This document shows positions 30,268 through 39,058 of a stretch of 64,000 nucleotides of DNA, piece after piece. Under the pieces are notes generated by a model, which had not been told where the DNA came from, ran no database searches, and saw only the letters and a program-made list of their open reading frames with translations. Positions within the stretch are counted from its first letter, which is position 1. Every line of letters begins with the position of its first letter. The stretch spans positions 1-64,000 of the forward strand of contig JAHEDY010000004.1 in assembly GCA_024640985.1 (NCBI GenBank), written 5' to 3'. The position numbers and the translations under genes are program-made. Source of the DNA: Gammaproteobacteria bacterium. Its GTDB lineage: Bacteria > Pseudomonadota > Gammaproteobacteria > Pseudomonadales > Litorivicinaceae.

Positions 30268-30483
30268 ATGAGAGCGGATATTCATCCAGCATACACCGAC
30301 GTTAAAGTCACATGCTCATGTGGTGCGTCGTATGATACACGGTCAACCAAAGGCGAAGACTTTTCTGTCGATGTTTGTCAAGAGTGTCACCCTTTTTATA
30401 CGGGTAAGCAGAAAGTGGTTGATACCGGTGGGCGAATCGATCGCTTCAATAAGCGCTTCGGTGGCCGCACAATTTCCAAGTAA
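30268..30483 (+). CDS. rpmE: Ribosomal protein L31 (zinc-binding form)
   Basis: This 71-residue large-subunit protein has the four zinc cysteines: Cys16, Cys18, Cys37 and Cys40 (TCSCGASY and [14 protein letters not shown]). It is therefore the C+ form that stores zinc. The ATG at 30268 follows AGAGGATAGAAC. A clean terminator lies 10 bases after the stop. Confidence 0.98.
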
Positions 30484-31210
30484 ATTCTTTACAAAAGCCG
30501 CTTTGATCGCGGCTTTTGTCTATTCAGGGGCGAGCGTCGCGGACTCCTGTCCGCCCCCTCAAACTCTTTCTCCACCATTGAAACTGCAGCGTGTCATCGA
30601 TGGCGATACCGTCAAGCTAAGCAATGGTTCAAGCGTTCGGTTGACGGGCTTTAACAGCTTCGAGCTCAAAGATTCCGGTTGGAAGCGTCAATATGCGCAA
30701 AAGGCGCGATCGCGCGCTCAAGAGGTGTTGAGTGAGACGATCTTCGTGACTCCCTGGCCTGCGTCGAGGGATCGTTATGGACGGTTGCTTGGCAATCTAT
30801 GGATGGGGGAATCTTATCTCGGAGAAGTCTTAGTTGCCGAAGGGCTTGCGTTGACGGTTTCAATTCCTCCAGAAAACCGTTTGGTTGCTTGCTTGTTGGA
30901 TCTGGAATGGCAGGCGCGTGATGCAAAACGGGGCGTTTGGGCATTGAATCGGTTGCCCGAGGGGGCAGAAGCACTCAATCGTGGTGGATTCCAGCATCGA
31001 GTTGGTGAAATCACTCAAATCCTTGATACGAAAACATTGGTGTTAAGTGATCGGTTACGAGTCATGCTCCCAAAGGCCGATTCATCGATGCAGGTCGGGA
31101 TGCGACTCGAAGTCCGAGGTTGGGTGTCTCGATCGCCAGCATCGATCCGGAGGCAATTTCCGTGGACCTTAACACTCAAAGATCTGACCAATCGCACCCG
31201 CGTGTTTTAG
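30461..31210 (+). CDS. Secreted thermonuclease-like (SNase) protein
   Basis: The SNase fold is clear: [20 protein letters not shown], then [12 protein letters not shown] and AKRGVW. By alignment with staphylococcal nuclease, the two catalytic Arg (in VRLTGF and DRYGRLL) and the Glu (NSFELK) are kept; the calcium-site Asp is Asn, as in many homologues. The start is uncertain. GTG 30461 gives a signal peptide ([20 protein letters not shown]) and overlaps rpmE by 23 bases; TTG 30503 is the next option. The rpmE terminator hairpin lies within this signal-peptide region. The stop overlaps mrcA in TTAG. Confidence 0.8.
30493..30519 (+). terminator. Rho-independent terminator of rpmE
   Basis: AAAAGCCGC and GCGGCTTTT form a perfect 9-bp stem with loop TTTGATC, ending in a T-rich tail (TTTTGT). 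It lies 10 bases after the rpmE stop and inside the likely signal-peptide codons of the downstream nuclease gene. Confidence 0.85.
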
Positions 31211-33630
31211 AACAATTGCTGAGGTGTTTGGATGGCTTGCCCGTCGTTTGAGGGGATCACAGCTTCAGGGGCTGCATCCTTCGGCGGGTTCTCCAATAAG
31301 AAGAATTCGCGCATGGAATTATTTTGCGTGCCACGTGCTTTCGCGCCGGTTTCTGGATCAATCCGTGTTGCAATGACGCCCGTTGGCAAGGGAGGGATCT
31401 CTTCGGGGACGCGATCCAGCGCGTGCTTCATGAATTCAATCCAGATCGGTAATGCAGCTCGCCCACCGTATTCAGCTCGCCCCAGTGTTTTCGGTTGGTC
31501 AAAGCCCACCCATACTGAGGCAACCAGATTCTTTTGGTAGCCATTGAACCAAGCGTCGACTTGATCGTTGGTGGTCCCTGTTTTACCAGCTAAATCCTGG
31601 CGACCCAAGGATTTGGCTTTTTTCGCTGTGCCTTGCTGGACAACATCTTTGAGCATGTCGTTGATGAGGAAATGAATCCGCTCATCTAAAACACGAGGTG
31701 CAATTCTGTCGGTGTAGTCCAAATCGAAAAAGTCAGATTTTGCCGGACGCAGTCGGTTATCGAAATCGAGGTCCACAGACACAGAACGGCCATCACAATC
31801 GGATTGACAGACGCTCACCGGACGCGTCTGATATAAAATGGCACCATCGGCTGATTCGATGCGATCAATTAGGTGATTTTTTACCCGGAATCCACCATTT
31901 GCAAAAATCGCATAAGTCTCCGCCATTTCTAGGGGCGTCAGAGACGCAGTGCCGAGTGAAATAGATAAATCTCTGGGAAGTTTGGTGGTATCCACCCCAA
32001 ATCGCTCTGCAATATCAATGATTCGATTCACTCCCAGTTCCCGAACCAGGCGCACAGAGACGAGATTGCGTGACCGATACAAGGCGGTTCTGAGCCGAGT
32101 AGGCCCGAGGAATGTCCCGCCAGAGTTCTGCGGGCGCCAGTCAGTCGCCCCTTCAGTCTGGTCAAACACGACGGGTGCATCGTTGATTAAGGTTGCTGGG
32201 GTCATTCCGGACTCAAGCGCTGCAGTATAGATCAGAGGCTTAATTCCCGACCCCACCAGTCGCCCACCCTGAGTGGCTCGGTTAAATTTCGACTCGAAAT
32301 AGTTAAAACCACCGATCATGGCTCGAATCGCGCCAGTGTTCGGATCGAGCGCAACAAATCCCGACTCAACTTCTGGTTTTTGCGCAAGCCACCAGCGCTT
32401 TTCATCTTGAAGAACCCGAATTAAATCACCTGGCTCGACCAAGCTGCGCGCATCTTTCACACGAGGTCCGATGCTGTTGACACTCCGATATTCTCGCGCC
32501 CACTCAAAACCTGGTTTCTCAATCACAATGGATTGTTCGTCCGAGGTGACCGCGCGGATGGAATTGTCGGTGACTGAGACAACCACTGCCGGTTGTAATG
32601 GGCCAATTGCATCGACGCTTGCCAGTTGGCGTTTCCAGTCAAATAGCGTGGTTCCGGTCAGTGTTTGTTCGACGCCTCGCCAACCATGGCGGCGATCGTA
32701 TTCCATCAGTCCTCGGATGACGGCATCTTGAGCAAATTTTTGTTGTTCGCCGTGAATGGTCGTGAATACACGGAGACCATCGGTGTAGGCACGATCATCA
32801 AAGATTTCCAGTGCGATGCGGCGCGCTTCTTCAGCAACATAAGGAGCGGTCAGATCCAGTTGGACGCCATGAAGCGAGGCCGTGACCGGTTGTTCAAGAG
32901 CCAAGTTAAAGTCGTACTCTTCGATAAAGCCCAGTTTCAGCATTCGGCCTAAAATCCAATCGCGACGTTCCTTTGCGCGCTCCGGATTGGCAATCGGATT
33001 GTACTTTGAAGGAGCCTTCGGGAGACCTGCGATCATTGCAGATTGCGCAAGGGTTAACTCGTCGAGAGTTTTTCCGTAATAAATTTGCGAAGCCGCATTC
33101 ACACCATAGGCTCGGTGTCCTAAAAAAATCACATTGAAGTAAAGTTCAAGGATCTCGTCTTTCGTCAGCGACTTCTCGATTTCGAGTGCCAGCAGGATTT
33201 CTCTAAATTTCCGAGCAAAGGTTCGCTCGTGGCTCAAGAAATAATTTTTCGCAACCTGCATGGTGATGGTGGAACCACCGGATTGAATCTGACCGCTTGA
33301 AACCAATTGCCAAGCTGCGCGAGCCAAGCCTAGGGGATCAATCCCAACGTGATCGCGGAAGTTGTCATCCTCAGCTGCGAGAAAGGCGCGCACCAGGTCA
33401 AGCGGGACTTCGTTAATACTGACGGGGTCACGCCGCTTCTCACCAAACTGTGCAATTAGTTGTCCATCTGCGCTGAAAATCTGTAGAGGTGTCTGCAGTT
33501 GAACGGTTCGAAGAGATTCAACATCCGGAAGGCCTGGCTTCAGATACAGATATCCGCCAATCACAACGCCTGTTCCTAAGATGGCTAGCGTCAATCCGAG
33601 GCTGATCAGAAAACGTATTGGCCCTGTCAC
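31207..33630 (-). CDS. mrcA: Penicillin-binding protein 1A (bifunctional transglycosylase/transpeptidase)
   Basis: This class A PBP (807 residues from GTG 33630) has an N-terminal membrane helix (FLISLGLTLAILGTGVVIGG), a glycosyltransferase domain with the catalytic Glu in AAEDDNFRDHVG (about residue 87) and QSGGSTITMQVAKNYF, and a transpeptidase domain with SxxK (VGSGIKPLIY), SxN (RSRNLV) and KTGT (LAGKTGTTND). GTG 33630 follows ATGGAAGCATT; a TTG at 33675 would add 15 residues. It is divergent from the pilus-like genes, the conserved arrangement. Confidence 0.97.
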   Translation of the reverse strand: MTGPIRFLISLGLTLAILGTGVVIGGYLYLKPGLPDVESLRTVQLQTPLQIFSADGQLIAQFGEKRRDPVSINEVPLDLVRAFLAAEDDNFRDHVGIDPLGLARAAWQLVSSGQIQSGGSTITMQVAKNYFLSHERTFARKFREILLALEIEKSLTKDEILELYFNVIFLGHRAYGVNAASQIYYGKTLDELTLAQSAMIAGLPKAPSKYNPIANPERAKERRDWILGRMLKLGFIEEYDFNLALEQPVTASLHGVQLDLTAPYVAEEARRIALEIFDDRAYTDGLRVFTTIHGEQQKFAQDAVIRGLMEYDRRHGWRGVEQTLTGTTLFDWKRQLASVDAIGPLQPAVVVSVTDNSIRAVTSDEQSIVIEKPGFEWAREYRSVNSIGPRVKDARSLVEPGDLIRVLQDEKRWWLAQKPEVESGFVALDPNTGAIRAMIGGFNYFESKFNRATQGGRLVGSGIKPLIYTAALESGMTPATLINDAPVVFDQTEGATDWRPQNSGGTFLGPTRLRTALYRSRNLVSVRLVRELGVNRIIDIAERFGVDTTKLPRDLSISLGTASLTPLEMAETYAIFANGGFRVKNHLIDRIESADGAILYQTRPVSVCQSDCDGRSVSVDLDFDNRLRPAKSDFFDLDYTDRIAPRVLDERIHFLINDMLKDVVQQGTAKKAKSLGRQDLAGKTGTTNDQVDAWFNGYQKNLVASVWVGFDQPKTLGRAEYGGRAALPIWIEFMKHALDRVPEEIPPLPTGVIATRIDPETGAKARGTQNNSMREFFLLENPPKDAAPEAVIPSNDGQAIQTPQQLF

Positions 33631-33738
33631 AATGCTTCCATTTCGAATCTTGGGCAGAAGTGTACCTAAAATCAAAGTCCAATATCGATTTGACAGACTT
33701 TATTTTCCTGCTTGGCTCTCCGGGAATTGGAGGGAGTC

Positions 33739-34302
33739 ATGCACACGAACCCGTCTCAAGTACAACAAGTCTACATGGGGTGCGACGCGCTTTATTGGAT
33801 AACTGATGGAGATTGCCAAAAGCAGTCATTTGAAGCTTTCCAACAGAAGCTGCAGCCAAGACACATGATTGTGTCTGAGTTTTGGATTCAGCGAGACATG
33901 ATTCCTTTGGATTTCGTGACCATGGACGCAGGTGGTGTTGGATTTGATTCGTTCGAGTGTGTTGAGCAAGGTGAGCGTTTTCAGATGCGTGCCGCATTGC
34001 GTTCTCGAGCCCTTCAATGCATTTCGGACTGTGTTCAGTTTCCACAACTGGATGCTTTGACGCCGGAGACGGACTGGGTCTGTTCACAACAAGCTGATGG
34101 AGTTTTTGCATGGCATAGCCATTCTCAGGTGACCGCTTGTTTGGTCGTTGACCAAAGCGTCAGGCGTGTTGGCCACTGGCCTTTAAACCAGCACGCGGAG
34201 CAAGTGCACGCTTGGGCTACGCGACTGGACTGCTCGGTGCCTGAGCTACAATTTGTCCCGATCCAGCAGATAGCGAATGGTTCTCTGCCATGCTCAATCT
34301 AA
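33739..34302 (+). CDS. PilM/HofM-position protein, half-length and divergent
   Basis: This 187-residue protein stands where pilM or hofM normally is: divergent from PBP1a and first before pilN-, pilO- and pilQ-like genes. I do not recognise clear PilM actin-fold motifs. PilM is usually about 350 residues and HofM about 260. The visible parts are a PilM-like start (VQQVYMGCDALYWITDG), LDAL followed by TPETDWVCSQQ, and DGVFAWHSHSQVTACLVVD, which could match a retained subdomain. GGAGGG lies at a good distance from the ATG, so it looks expressed. It overlaps the next gene by 13 bases. Confidence 0.7.
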   Translation: MHTNPSQVQQVYMGCDALYWITDGDCQKQSFEAFQQKLQPRHMIVSEFWIQRDMIPLDFVTMDAGGVGFDSFECVEQGERFQMRAALRSRALQCISDCVQFPQLDALTPETDWVCSQQADGVFAWHSHSQVTACLVVDQSVRRVGHWPLNQHAEQVHAWATRLDCSVPELQFVPIQQIANGSLPCSI

Positions 34303-34781
34303 TCCACTGGCGCGGGGTGATGATACGGAAGCGATTCATTTGGTGCGCGCGCTGGTGTCTTTTTCTCACATTGAGTTTGGTCTCGGTTGCGCTCTCGGCA
34401 TCAATCATGTTGCTCTCACTCAGCAAAGATTTGCCCGATCAGACGGAGCAGCTTGCGGACTTGGTTCGTCAAAACACGACCATGAGCCAACAGCTCAACG
34501 AGATGCAACTGTCCGTTGATCAACGCTTGCAGGCCCAAACAAGCCAGCTCGAACATCAGGAACATCTCAGTCTGCGCTTGTCGAGACTTCAGCGATTGTC
34601 ATTGATTGATGCGTTTCGGGTCATCTCAGTCACCGATACCAAAAAAAGCACGGTCGTTCGGCTGCAGATCGGTGATCTGGCACAACTGACGTCCCAGCCT
34701 TTAGAGAATCCGTTTGATGTTCGTCTTGTGCAGCCGGGTGAACATGCGGTGATCGCTGAGTTGGTTTTCAGCGATGGCTAA
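34290..34781 (+). CDS. PilN/HofN-like inner-membrane pilus assembly protein
   Basis: This 163-residue protein starts MLNLIHWRG, resembling the INLLPWR start of PilN, followed by basic residues (MIRKRF), a membrane helix (CLFLTLSLVSVALSASIMLL), a coiled coil (about 45-105, QTEQLADLVRQNTTMSQQLN) and a short C-terminal ferredoxin-like region. PilN bridges PilM in the cytosol and PilO in the periplasm. The gene overlaps the previous one by 13 bases and the next by 8 (ATGGCTAA). Confidence 0.8.
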   Translation: MLNLIHWRGVMIRKRFIWCARWCLFLTLSLVSVALSASIMLLSLSKDLPDQTEQLADLVRQNTTMSQQLNEMQLSVDQRLQAQTSQLEHQEHLSLRLSRLQRLSLIDAFRVISVTDTKKSTVVRLQIGDLAQLTSQPLENPFDVRLVQPGEHAVIAELVFSDG

Positions 34782-35496
34782 TTTTCAACAGTGGGTTGCT
34801 CGTCACACGAATGTGGTTCTGATTGCCTGGTTTCTCATTGTTGCAGCTGTACTGGGCGTTTTCGTCGTGAAGCCACTCTTCGATCGTTACGTGGCCCGTT
34901 TAATCGACCAACGCCAAGTCATCGAGCAGACGGCACGTCACCAGCGGTTAGATCAACGACGGTTGGCATTATCTCAGGCGATCGAAGAGATCGACGCAGC
35001 ATCTCACTCATTGGACCTGATGGCCTTGGTCGCGCATCTCAGTGACATGGGTGAGATTCTCGATGTTCAGGTCACGTCTGATCAGTGGGTGGTGAGTTTA
35101 GCGATGTCCGGTCAGTCCGATGTAGGTGCAATTTATGATCTGCTCTCGCGTATCTCTGGACTGGCAGTAGACACCATTGCGTTGCAAACAATGGATGGCG
35201 AACAGCAGCTTCGCTTGTCACTCGAGCCTTCGGAAGCAGTTTGGTTGCACACAGTTGATGGGTCGTTGTCAGAACTCGCTTGGGGTGATCGTCTTGGTGA
35301 ACTCTCTGTCTGCCCGAATCTCAGGTTGCGAGCTCAATTGGGGGAGCGGTTTCAAGTGGTGATGAATGATTCAGACCGTCTGTCGATCGCAACAGGCGAC
35401 TGGCTCAATGCCGATTGGCGATTCCTGGGTTATCGAGATGAACAGTTTATTTTAAAAAATGGATTAGGACGGACATGCGTAACACCAAGCTTCTGA
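34774..35496 (+). CDS. PilO-like protein fused to a PilP/HofP-like C-terminal domain
   Basis: This 240-residue protein has a membrane helix (about 15-35, VVLIAWFLIVAAVLGVFVV), a coiled coil and a PilO-type periplasmic domain to about residue 160. The last 75 residues (from LSELAWGDRLGELSV) end in a pattern like the PilP/HofP beta-domain: LSIATGDWLNADWRFLGY then FILKNGLGRTC. No separate pilP exists before the secretin gene, so I infer a PilO-PilP fusion. The fusion reading is from pattern only. It overlaps the secretin gene by 22 bases. Confidence 0.7.
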   Translation: MANFQQWVARHTNVVLIAWFLIVAAVLGVFVVKPLFDRYVARLIDQRQVIEQTARHQRLDQRRLALSQAIEEIDAASHSLDLMALVAHLSDMGEILDVQVTSDQWVVSLAMSGQSDVGAIYDLLSRISGLAVDTIALQTMDGEQQLRLSLEPSEAVWLHTVDGSLSELAWGDRLGELSVCPNLRLRAQLGERFQVVMNDSDRLSIATGDWLNADWRFLGYRDEQFILKNGLGRTCVTPSF

Positions 35497-36638
35497 TCGC
35501 AATTTTCCTAGGGCTTGTCTGTTCGAAGATCAGTGCATCAGAAACCATCCAGCTTGCCTTTGAGCAAACGCCTTTGGCTGAAGCGGTGAGCTTCTTTTCT
35601 GAAACTTCCGGGTTGAATGTGTCGATTCCAGAAGGATTCAATCCATCGATCACGGTCAAGCAAACGGCTGATGATTACCGGCAAGCGATTGAGAAGATCG
35701 CAGCTGCAGCGGGTCTGACGGCGATTGACGTACCAACCGGGTTCGAACTTCGGAACCGGACTGAACGCTTAAGTGTCCTGGTGATTGACTTAAAGCATCG
35801 AGAAGCCGAACAGGTGCTGAACCTGGTGGAATCATCAAGTCAAACGACAGCAGCAGAAGTCTCTGTGATTGCTGATCCTGAAACGAATCGCCTGATTGTT
35901 CGAGGTGATCTGTCAGAGGTATCAGCGATCAAGCAATTGGTCGAAGTGCTTGACGTTTCGGTCAAGCAGATTCTTATCGAAGCCAAACTCGTGTCTCAGG
36001 ATACCGATAAGCGACGAGATTTGGGTATTCGATGGTCATTTGCTACATCAGAGCCTGGTCGTTCCGGGATACAGGGGCAAACACAGGGGTTTGCGGATCA
36101 ATCAGGCCGTTCAGCGATGTCGCTGGCTTTTGTTTCCGATCCGAAACTCCTAGCCCTAGAACTGCAGGCGCTTGAGTCATCAGGCGTAGGCGAGGTGATC
36201 TCTGAGCCCCGTATTGTGACGACTAACCGACGGGCAGCGACGATTCGACAGGGCCAACAGCTACCCTTTGTCACAGTCGACGAAGAGGGCCGGTCGTCAA
36301 CGGAATTTAAAGATGCGGTCCTTGAATTAAAGGTCACACCGATTTTGCGCGACGATGGAAAAATCGAAATGATTCTTGAAATTCGGCAGGATCAAGTCAG
36401 CCAACTGATAACGGCACAGGGCCCTGCGATTGAGACGCGCGAATTAAATACGCGTGTGACCGTTGATCCGGAAGAAACCCTGGTTCTCGGTGGTATTTAT
36501 GAATCGCGCGAGGAGAGTATTCTGGTCGGGATCCCCGGTTTATCCTCGATTCCGATACTGGGTCAGGCGTTTCAATCAACTCAGCGTCGAGCCTTTAAAT
36601 CAGAACTGTTAATATTTATCACTCCGCGCATCCTATAA
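35475..36638 (+). CDS. Short PilQ/HofQ-type secretin
   Basis: This outer-membrane secretin has 387 residues, about half the length of Pseudomonas PilQ. It has a signal peptide (about 1-22, IFLGLVCSKISAS), an N0/STN domain (LAEAVSFFSETSGLNVSIP), one N1 domain (EQVLNLVESS to QLVEVLDVS) and a complete secretin core ending KSELLIFITPRIL. The core includes VGEVISEPRIVTTN and VLGGIYESRE. AMIN domains are missing, so it is like HofQ/ComE of the DNA-uptake type. aroK follows after 10 bases. Confidence 0.88.
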   Translation: MRNTKLLIAIFLGLVCSKISASETIQLAFEQTPLAEAVSFFSETSGLNVSIPEGFNPSITVKQTADDYRQAIEKIAAAAGLTAIDVPTGFELRNRTERLSVLVIDLKHREAEQVLNLVESSSQTTAAEVSVIADPETNRLIVRGDLSEVSAIKQLVEVLDVSVKQILIEAKLVSQDTDKRRDLGIRWSFATSEPGRSGIQGQTQGFADQSGRSAMSLAFVSDPKLLALELQALESSGVGEVISEPRIVTTNRRAATIRQGQQLPFVTVDEEGRSSTEFKDAVLELKVTPILRDDGKIEMILEIRQDQVSQLITAQGPAIETRELNTRVTVDPEETLVLGGIYESREESILVGIPGLSSIPILGQAFQSTQRRAFKSELLIFITPRIL

Positions 36639-36648
36639 CTGAGGTTTC

Positions 36649-37179
36649 ATGTCCGATATTGCGTTTCCGCTCATTCTGATCGGCCCAACTGGCGCTGGTA
36701 AGACGACTGTGGGTCGGCTCTTGGCCAATAGGCTTGGAGTGCCATTTTTTGATTTAGATGAGGAGATTGAATCGCGTTGCGGGGCGGATATCCCTTGGAT
36801 CTTTGATGTTGAAGGTGAGTCCGGGTTTCGTGATCGTGAGGCGCGGGTGTTGAGTGATCTTGTTGGGCAAGGTGATGTTGTGGTTTCGACCGGTGCAGGT
36901 GTCATCTTAAGACAGGAAAACAGAGAGCTGCTGGCCAAGCATATCAACCGGGTGATTTGGTTACAGGTGGATTTGAAAACACAATTTGATCGGCTGAAAA
37001 ATGATAAAAATCGACCGCTACTGCAAGTCGCTGATCCGAAGGCGAAGCTGCGCGCGATGGCTATTGAGCGAGAACCGCTGTACCAATCTTGCGCTTCGAT
37101 TCAGGTACAGACTCGCAAAACAAATCCGTCTATTGTGGTGCATCAAATTATGGAACAGCTTCATGGGGAAGAGCGATGA
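36649..37179 (+). CDS. aroK: Shikimate kinase
   Basis: This 176-residue kinase phosphorylates shikimate in the aromatic amino acid pathway. Walker A is GPTGAGKT (12-19). Shikimate contacts are in DLDEEIE and the Arg of SGFRDREAR. The lid has Arg in NDKNRPLLQ. It overlaps aroB by 4 bases (ATGA). Confidence 0.97.
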
Positions 37180-38252
37180 GAACGCTGAACGTCGATCTAG
37201 GCGAGCGCGCCTATCCGATCCACATTGGACGCGGACTTCTGAACTCGGATTTGCTGGCATCGGTGATCCGTGGTCGCCAGGTACTCGTTGTCACCAATGA
37301 TCGCATTGCTCCTCTGTATTTAGAACGGGTGCTTGCTCAATTATCGGATTTTGAAGTCGCAACTGTGATTCTTCCCGATGGCGAGAATCACAAACAGATT
37401 GATACTTTGGATTTGATTTTTTCAGAAGCACTCGAGCGTCGTTTTTCGAGGAATGCCACCATGATTGCGCTTGGCGGGGGCGTGGTTGGCGATATGGTTG
37501 GATTTGCTGCAGCGACCTATCAACGAGGCATCGACTTCGTTCAAATTCCCACCACTTTGTTGTCACAAGTTGACTCATCGGTTGGCGGGAAGACTGGCGT
37601 CAACCATCGCTTTGGAAAAAATATGATCGGCGCGTTTCACCAGCCTGTTGCTGTGTTGATCGATACCGACGTTTTAGCAACATTGCCGGCCAATGAAATG
37701 TCAGCGGGTATGGCCGAAGTCATTAAATATGGGTTATTGGGTGACGAGGCGTTTCTCACGTGGATTGAGGATCATCTTGATGCGTTGATGTCAAAACACA
37801 GCCAAGCGATTTCGACAGCGATTGAGCAGTCCTGCCAGATGAAAGCGAAGATTGTGGCGCGAGATGAGCGTGAAGGTGGTGTTCGAGCCCTTCTTAATTT
37901 AGGACATACCTTTGGTCATGCGATCGAGGCGCACTTAGGGTATGGCGGCTGGCTTCACGGAGAAGCAGTGGGTGCTGGGATGGTGCTCGCCGCACGCGTA
38001 TCTTGTGCCATGGGAATGTTGGTGGAATCAGATGTGCAGCGCGTGCTGTCCATCTGCCAGCGTGCGAATTTGCCAACGGAACCCCCGAAAGGAATGACGC
38101 CGGATGATTTCTTCCGGCATATGGCTGTGGATAAAAAAAATGTCGACGGTCGACTTCGGCTTGTGTTGCTACGCGCGTTAGGGGTCGCCTATCTCGAGGA
38201 TCATGCGCCGATGGCGCTATTAGATGATGTACTGACAGCGTGCTGTCATTAG
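37176..38252 (+). CDS. aroB: 3-dehydroquinate synthase
   Basis: This NAD- and zinc-dependent enzyme (358 residues) closes the DAHP ring in the shikimate pathway. Signatures are [31 protein letters not shown], and the metal residues in MAEVIKYG and [12 protein letters not shown] use ATG 37176, which overlaps the aroK stop; the open frame extends into aroK without meaning. Confidence 0.97.
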
Positions 38253-39058
38253 TTCGATCTCAGCACGCGTGTATTGAGCGGATCCGCTCAGCCGTTCGCT
38301 GGGCGAAACGTTTAGTCGTGTTGGTTGGTGCGCCTGGTCAAGGGAAGACCGTGGTGCTCCAAGACTTGGTGTTGCGAACCCCAACGAATCCACTGTGCCT
38401 CGAGGGCGAATTAATTTCTGATCGGACAGATGCGGTGCTTCGACTGATGGGCTTGGTGGGATTAAGACCAGAGGGTTCGATCCATCAGATGCTTGGGCGA
38501 TTACAAACTAAGCATTCCACAGGCTCCGAGCAGGGTATTCCTGAAATCATCGTCGACGATGCGCATTGTCTTCCCGATGATGTTTTGCAGTTATTTCATG
38601 AGTTGACCGCAGGAGCTTATGGTCGCCGTTGGTCGGTGTTGTTGGTCGGGGAAAGCCAGCTTGTTTCGAGATTGCAGGAACTTCAGCCAATTGCTGTGCT
38701 TTGCAGTGTGGTGATGCTGCCGCCATGGGATCAACAGGATCTGGAACAAGCGGGGTCAAAATTCTACCCGGGTCACGAGTGGTCGAGTATCCCCTCGAGT
38801 TTGCTACAGCGATATGGATCTCAGCCAAAGCAACTGCTGCGTTTAGTCGGTGAGTGGGAGGACTCAGTTGCGTCGGCTCCGGATCTTCCGGAGCGTGAGG
38901 CTAAGGTGTCGATGGTGCGAATCTCTTCTTCTTGGATGATTGGATTCGGCATTGCCCTTGCGGTCTTGATCGCTGTGTTGATATTTGTTCAACTCGGTGA
39001 CGAAAAAACACCCGCTCGAACGTCGACACCAATTCCCTTAACGCCAAATAATCAGTAG
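38240..39058 (+). CDS. DamX-like AAA ATPase without SPOR domain
   Basis: This 272-residue protein is in the damX position after aroB. It has an ExeA/DamX-type ATPase domain with Walker A GAPGQGKT and Walker B EIIVDDAH, then one membrane helix (about 229-251, [20 protein letters not shown]) and only about 20 periplasmic residues. DamX normally carries a long linker and a C-terminal SPOR domain; both are absent, and the following 220 bases encode no SPOR domain. It starts at GTG 38240, overlapping aroB by 13 bases. Confidence 0.82.

Follow-up and report, generated by a model that had tools for sequence, protein, structure and literature searches.

A four-gene cluster between PBP1a and aroK

Four open reading frames (ORFs) were found on the + strand at positions 33739-36638 of the window (i.e., the whole 64,000-nucleotide stretch that was analysed), with overlaps of 13, 8, and 22 nt. 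A reading made earlier from the letters of the DNA (the sequence-only reading) had placed four overlapping genes at the position of pilMNOPQ, between PBP1a and aroK, and the ORFs and overlaps are exactly as it claimed. The genes and their neighbours are as follows.

31207..33675, - strand: PBP1a, the divergent and conserved upstream neighbour (Pfam Transgly, 2.1e-65; Transpeptidase, 3.3e-26)
33739..34302, + strand: PilM-position protein (mini-M), 187 amino acids (aa), predicted reduced actin-like fold, phosphate-1 motif absent
34290..34781, + strand: PilN-like protein (mini-N), 163 aa, with an N-terminal NLxxWR motif, transmembrane (TM) helix, and coiled coil
34774..35496, + strand: putative PilO-PilP composite, 240 aa, no lipobox
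35475..36638, + strand: AMIN-less secretin (mini-Q), 387 aa, with a signal peptide, N0-like region, Secretin_N, and secretin domain
36649..37179, + strand: aroK, the conserved downstream neighbour, identified by position and sequence

The PBP1a gene keeps its place in relatives, and its Escherichia coli counterpart is mrcA. The aroK gene, which adjoins hofQ in E. coli, was detected in 22 of 22 genus genomes searched (as a partial or weak match in some) and is followed here by aroB, a gene for an AAA protein, and gltB. The cluster site, between the divergent PBP1a gene and aroK, is the place of pilMNOPQ/hofMNOPQ. In Pfam and NCBIfam searches, a significant family match was obtained for the last of the four genes only. 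Named relatives of its product came from Litoricola MAGs, HIMB30, and LSUCC0096, and the genome belongs to the marine OM252/Litoricola lineage. The genome under study (G000; 1.63 Mb, with an estimated completeness of 98.85%) was compared with congeneric genomes that include a sister species (G002), LSUCC0096 (G001), and a genome that is probably HIMB30 (G009).

Other features of the window were also recorded. Between aroB and gltB, in the position of damX, lies a gene (38240-39058) for an AAA_22 ATPase whose C terminus carries a TM helix; a profile search gave no SPOR domain match for it. A frame at 30320-31210, judged by eye to encode an SNase-like secreted nuclease, adjoins rpmE and PBP1a and lies beside the cluster in relatives too. 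A search of the window for DNA uptake sequences revealed no over-represented word resembling DUS/USS.

The secretin and the PilN-like protein

The secretin was matched by Pfam Secretin (5.6e-42) and Secretin_N (3.1e-10), and no AMIN domain was detected in the Pfam/NCBIfam search, in agreement with the earlier description of a 387-aa secretin without AMIN domains. Among NCBIfam models, PilQ (1.9e-74, below the curated cutoff) scored ahead of HofQ (2.6e-54) and GspD (3.7e-45). Profile alignment with hhalign to the PilQ of the order (100%; E value, 8e-62) covered PilQ columns 292-713, the C-terminal part, and alignment to E. coli HofQ (probability, 99.9%) ran end to end (residues 1-386 on 1-409). 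It is the sole secretin in the genome under study.

The order-level PilN HMM matched members of the mini-N family (best, 8.6e-5), and hhalign aligned mini-N to PilN at 82%. The N/DLxxWR motif was present, in varied form, in all eight complete mini-N members; the protein has the PilN-type N-terminal PilM-binding motif together with a TM helix. Of the five families for which the sequence-only reading had proposed HMM searches, Secretin and, with the order-level HMM, PilN were recovered; PilM, PilO, and PilP gave no significant match.

Full-length pilMNOPQ clusters at the same site in 22 genomes of the order served as the reference set. Their products span 352 to 384 aa (PilM), 186 to 251 aa (PilN), 196 to 216 aa (PilO), 174 to 188 aa (PilP), and 693 to 752 aa (PilQ). 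By these lengths, the PilM-position protein and the secretin are much shorter here, and PilO and PilP are represented by one gene. The claim that every protein is shortened therefore stands for these proteins and was overstated for mini-N, which at 163 aa is modestly shorter than the 179-aa HofN of E. coli.

Structural models of mini-M and the 240-aa protein

No sequence-profile match to mini-M was found in Pfam, in NCBIfam, with the order-level PilM HMM, or with hhalign, and nothing significant was found for the 240-aa protein in Pfam, NCBIfam, the order-level HMMs, or hhalign. We therefore predicted the structures of both. The AlphaFold model of mini-M, built with eight genus sequences, reached a pLDDT of 71.7 and a pTM of 0.70, and one of the five models was good. 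Foldseek matched it to PilM (5eox; E value, 1.3e-5; probability, 1.00), EpsL (1yf5; E value, 2e-5), and BT_3980 (E value, 2e-6). With VIA, matches to PilM, cyto-EpsL, and FtsA had Z scores ranging from 6.5 to 7.7 (6.8 for PilM-PilN 2ych and 7.3 for cyto-EpsL). At moderate model confidence, mini-M is predicted to be a remnant of the PilM/GspL actin-like fold. Identification as Hsp70 or pantothenate kinase was rejected, since those matches in the fold library have only the general fold in common. No TM helix was present in the model. The phosphate-1 (nucleotide) motif was absent from all eight mini-M sequences and present in 20 of the 22 full-length PilM proteins of the order, and mini-M presumably does not bind nucleotide.

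The model of the 240-aa protein (pLDDT, 79.5; pTM, 0.41) comprised a TM helix and coiled coil (residues 2-76), a ferredoxin-like domain (79-154), a linker (163-176), and a beta domain (179-240). The top VIA matches of residues 79-154 were PilO structures 3jc8 (Z, 8.4) and 2rjz (Z, 8.2), with root mean square deviations (rmsd) of 2.2 to 2.4 over 75 to 76 residues, and the model identifies this domain, at the level of the fold, as the PilO periplasmic domain. Residues 179-240, approximately, weakly matched PilP 2y4y (Z, 5.6; rmsd, 2.6 over 61 residues) and the PulC HR domain (Z, 5.4). In hhalign, PilO aligned to the N-terminal half and PilP to residues 192-227, colinearly and in both cases weakly. 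The assignment of the C-terminal domain to the PilP/GspC HR type is therefore supported but unproven. The earlier proposal that this one protein spans PilO and PilP thus held well for PilO and less firmly for PilP. PilP is not encoded as a separate lipoprotein: the composite is a single ORF, and a lipobox was found in none of nine composites, compared with 18 of 22 PilP proteins of the order.

Selection on the four genes

Between the genome under study and its sister species (dS, 0.25 to 0.42), dN/dS was 0.09 for mini-M, 0.14 for mini-N, 0.28 for the 240-aa protein, and 0.10 for the secretin. Other pairs gave values from 0.05 to 0.25, compared with 0.02 for PBP1a. The four genes are under purifying selection, with the M, N, and O-P genes less constrained than the secretin gene. 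The four frames were intact in eight genomes with their overlaps conserved, and lengths were similar in congeneric genomes. This conservation at similar lengths, together with dN/dS of 0.05 to 0.28, indicates that the ORFs are not chance frames and bears out the earlier view that the genes are selected, not decayed.

Other parts of a putative uptake machinery

Other parts of a pilus and DNA-uptake system were sought across the genome. ComEC (734-735 aa) is present, and a minor-pilin operon follows ispH; it encodes pilins like PilV, PilW, and PilX and a GFxxxE pilin, and an N_methyl pilin was recognised in it. Both comEC and the minor-pilin genes are intact. Inspection of this operon by eye revealed no tip gene of PilY1 size. 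PilA, PilB, PilC, and PilD were not found in the assembly. A genome check suggested in the sequence-only reading, for pilB, pilC, pilD, pilins, and comEC, therefore turned up comEC and the minor pilins and failed to turn up pilABCD. In the sister species and LSUCC0096, pilA is divergent to pilB-pilC-pilD-coaE, and pilABCD occurs in other congeneric genomes too. In the genome under study, contig C26 opens with the last bases of pilD (its 3' end). The genes beyond pilA, which the sister species and other relatives keep, are absent from the assembly as well. Given this contig start and the missing far flank, the absence of pilABCD is likely an assembly gap; true loss was considered unlikely on the same grounds, and pilABCD is presumably present in the genome itself.

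The missing genes bear on two readings without a pilus. The four proteins might form a secretin complex that acts as a stand-alone outer-membrane channel for DNA or protein, as would fit an assembly that is 98.85% complete yet has no PilB, PilC, or PilA and, in addition, the HIMB30 genome, in which the cluster is intact and pilABCD is deleted. However, the gap falls exactly at the pilABCD locus and has swallowed conserved flanks too, the sister species has pilABCD, and minor pilins are kept, so that we regard such a channel as the least probable reading. Were pilABCD truly absent, the complex, ComEC, and the minor pilins could constitute a motor-less DNA entry channel, which we consider only marginally more credible. 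The earlier suggestion of a minimal secretin machine was qualified: the cluster is probably no stand-alone machine and instead encodes the envelope part of a reduced DNA-uptake system of the type IV pilus (T4P) kind.

No PilT-type ATPase of the pilus system was found among the PF00437 matches over the cutoff in the genus. Those matches were PilB, Tad CpaF, proteins of a separate locus on contig C20 of G009, and weak ones in 1,252-aa frames (G008 and G017). The CpaF-type ATPases of G002, G003, G006, and G020 were rejected as PilT candidates, as their neighbours are TadB/C-, CpaC-, and TadE-like. The PilB, PilC, and PilT of G009 were rejected as cognate components, as they lie in a separate locus with its own 798-aa secretin. 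Uptake of DNA by a type IVa pilus (T4aP) lacking PilT is known from nontypeable Haemophilus (PMC6668835). No type II secretion system (T2SS) was detected in the genome under study, with no T2SSE match over the cutoff and no T2SSF match, and mini-Q scores higher as PilQ than as GspD.

Three observations were made in passing. Tad-type islands occur in G002, G006, G020, and G003 (L109, L115, L116, and L117, respectively); their CpaC-like proteins are short (292 to 321 aa in G020 and G003), and the match of these proteins to the secretin profile is weak and ends early. The second T4P-like locus of G009 (L118, G009:C20:90000-105536, and G009:C20:89084-89977) encodes PilB (567 aa), PilC, PilT, and the 798-aa secretin; STAS-type signalling genes come next. 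The PilB of LSUCC0096 (495 aa; L107:9358-10845) matches the PilB profile only from position 123 to 459 of 564, and the motor therefore seems reduced too.

A general reduced T4aP for adhesion or surface contact, with DNA uptake incidental, is the other reading that retains a pilus. It would accord with the PilA major pilin and minor pilins of relatives and with the many roles of T4aP. The missing PilT and a minor-pilin operon with no large tip gene of the PilY1 type count against it, as do the close association with ComEC and the AMIN-less, HofQ-type secretin, and we judge it unlikely. The hof/com likeness proposed from the sequence was upheld by the end-to-end HofQ alignment, ComEC and minor pilins in this genome, PilABCD in the sister species, and the failure to find PilT.

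Co-occurrence and repeated loss across the genus

The secretin was found in 10 of 22 congeneric genomes, 8 of which have the cognate PilC and 8 of which have ComEC; secretin, PilC, and ComEC were detected in 0 of the remaining 12. Some congeneric genomes are incomplete, but among those without the secretin, G005 (98%), G015 (95%), and G012 (91%) are fairly complete. One genome with an intact cluster (G013, 90% complete) gave no ComEC match. At the PBP1a-aroK site, fragments of the M gene and the end of the Q gene are left in G004, G015, G018, and G019; no more than a trace of M, if anything, is left in G005, G008, G011, G012, G014, G016, and G017. The flanks of the pilABCD site are joined in eight genomes (G005, G009, G011, G012, G015, G016, G019, and G021), seven of which are also without an intact cluster. 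The eighth, G009, has an intact mini cluster, nothing of pilABCD except the ends of pilA and pilD, and no detected comEC, and plausibly represents an early stage of loss.

In a tree of PBP1a, the deepest members are among those with the mini form, and at least five changes (losses) are needed. The short form is ancestral in the genus and has been lost repeatedly, usually together with pilABCD/comEC. In phylogenetically independent pairs compared for co-loss, all differing pairs agreed in direction, and they were too few for significance. The sequence-only reading had envisaged full-length pilMNOPQ elsewhere in the genome and premature stops in these genes in close relatives as evidence against it. 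No other pilMNOPQ, full-length or otherwise, was found in the genome under study. Evidence of the second kind was seen in other species: relatives that have lost pilABCD/comEC retain no more of the cluster than deletion scars.

With all stages of loss on display in relatives (G009/HIMB30, the scars in G018, G004, G015, and G019, the clean sites of others, and at least five losses), the cluster might be what remains of a lost pilus, in decay and retained here by chance. However, eight genomes have all four frames unbroken and the overlaps preserved, dN/dS between the genome under study and its sister is 0.09 to 0.28, and comEC and the minor pilins are intact here, and we hold decay to be very unlikely.

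A probable reduced DNA-uptake pilus

The cluster probably encodes the alignment complex and secretin of a reduced, PilT-less type IV pilus of the Com/Hof type that serves DNA uptake (natural transformation). DNA uptake, pilus extension, and the protein contacts are inferred as follows. PilB/PilC would extend a short PilA pilus, with a few minor pilins, through a ring of the 387-aa secretin. The 187-aa PilM remnant may, free of nucleotide, provide a docking site for PilN in the cytoplasm, in the manner of GspL in the T2SS, and PilN would partner the PilO portion of the 240-aa protein. The PilP-like C-terminal domain of the latter may contact the N0 ring of the secretin directly, without a separate lipoprotein. 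DNA, most likely from seawater, would be drawn into the periplasm and then pass through ComEC.

The cluster suggests that PilMNOP can be trimmed to three genes, with about 590 residues in all, and still be selected. With loss of the PilM nucleotide motif and an apparent merger of PilP into PilO, it offers a compact test case for the role of PilMNOP. The cluster further points to a DNA-uptake system in the cosmopolitan marine OM252 lineage that has apparently gone unreported, and to the repeated loss of this system; the OM252 genome paper reports flagella and does not mention pilus, pili, competence, or comEC (PMC8269220). Cultured strains exist with and without parts of the system.

Comparison with known systems

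The T4aP pilMNOPQ clusters of the order and the sister genus (G022) share gene order, neighbours, the PilN motif, and the C-terminal half of PilQ with the cluster described here. They differ in having a PilM of about 355 aa, a separate PilP, and a PilQ of about 725 aa, including the N-terminal half that is missing here. In G022, PilM and PilN occupy one 541-aa frame (L048:3357-4982) with a GspL-like layout, which could be an assembly error. A Halomonas locus (L150) was rejected as a short match, as it has full-length pilMNOPQ.

The hofMNOPQ genes of E. coli and comABCDE of Haemophilus occupy the same place (mrcA/PBP1a-aroK) and include an AMIN-less secretin; AMIN-less T4aP secretins were already known (PMC7545093). 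However, Hof has five genes (259, 179, 146, 134, and 412 aa), whereas the cluster here has four, with PilO and PilP apparently in one protein and a 187-aa PilM without a sequence-detectable PilM domain. Likeness to the GspL/GspM/GspC proteins of the T2SS was also seen: mini-M resembles cyto-EpsL as much as PilM, and the 240-aa protein has a GspC-like layout (i.e., a TM protein ending in a putative HR-type domain). In the literature, GspL is described as a fusion of PilM and PilN (PMC10191384). In contrast to the T2SS, the secretin here is of the PilQ/HofQ type, not GspD, and the locus is that of pilMNOPQ.

Mini clusters at the PBP1a-aroK site were also found in other families of the order, in genus g46 of family f45 (G068, G181, G222, and G241; L280-L283) and in G049 (L042). 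Like the cluster here, they have an AMIN-less secretin (396 to 480 aa) and one protein between PilN and Q. The PilM of g46, unlike mini-M, has 287 to 329 aa and a PilM_2 match (checked in G241), and G049 has a 322-aa PilM/PilN-like protein. These clusters are probably independent reductions, and a reduction of this kind may therefore have arisen more than once. What is unusual in the cluster described here is the PilO-PilP composite together with a PilM of 187 aa.
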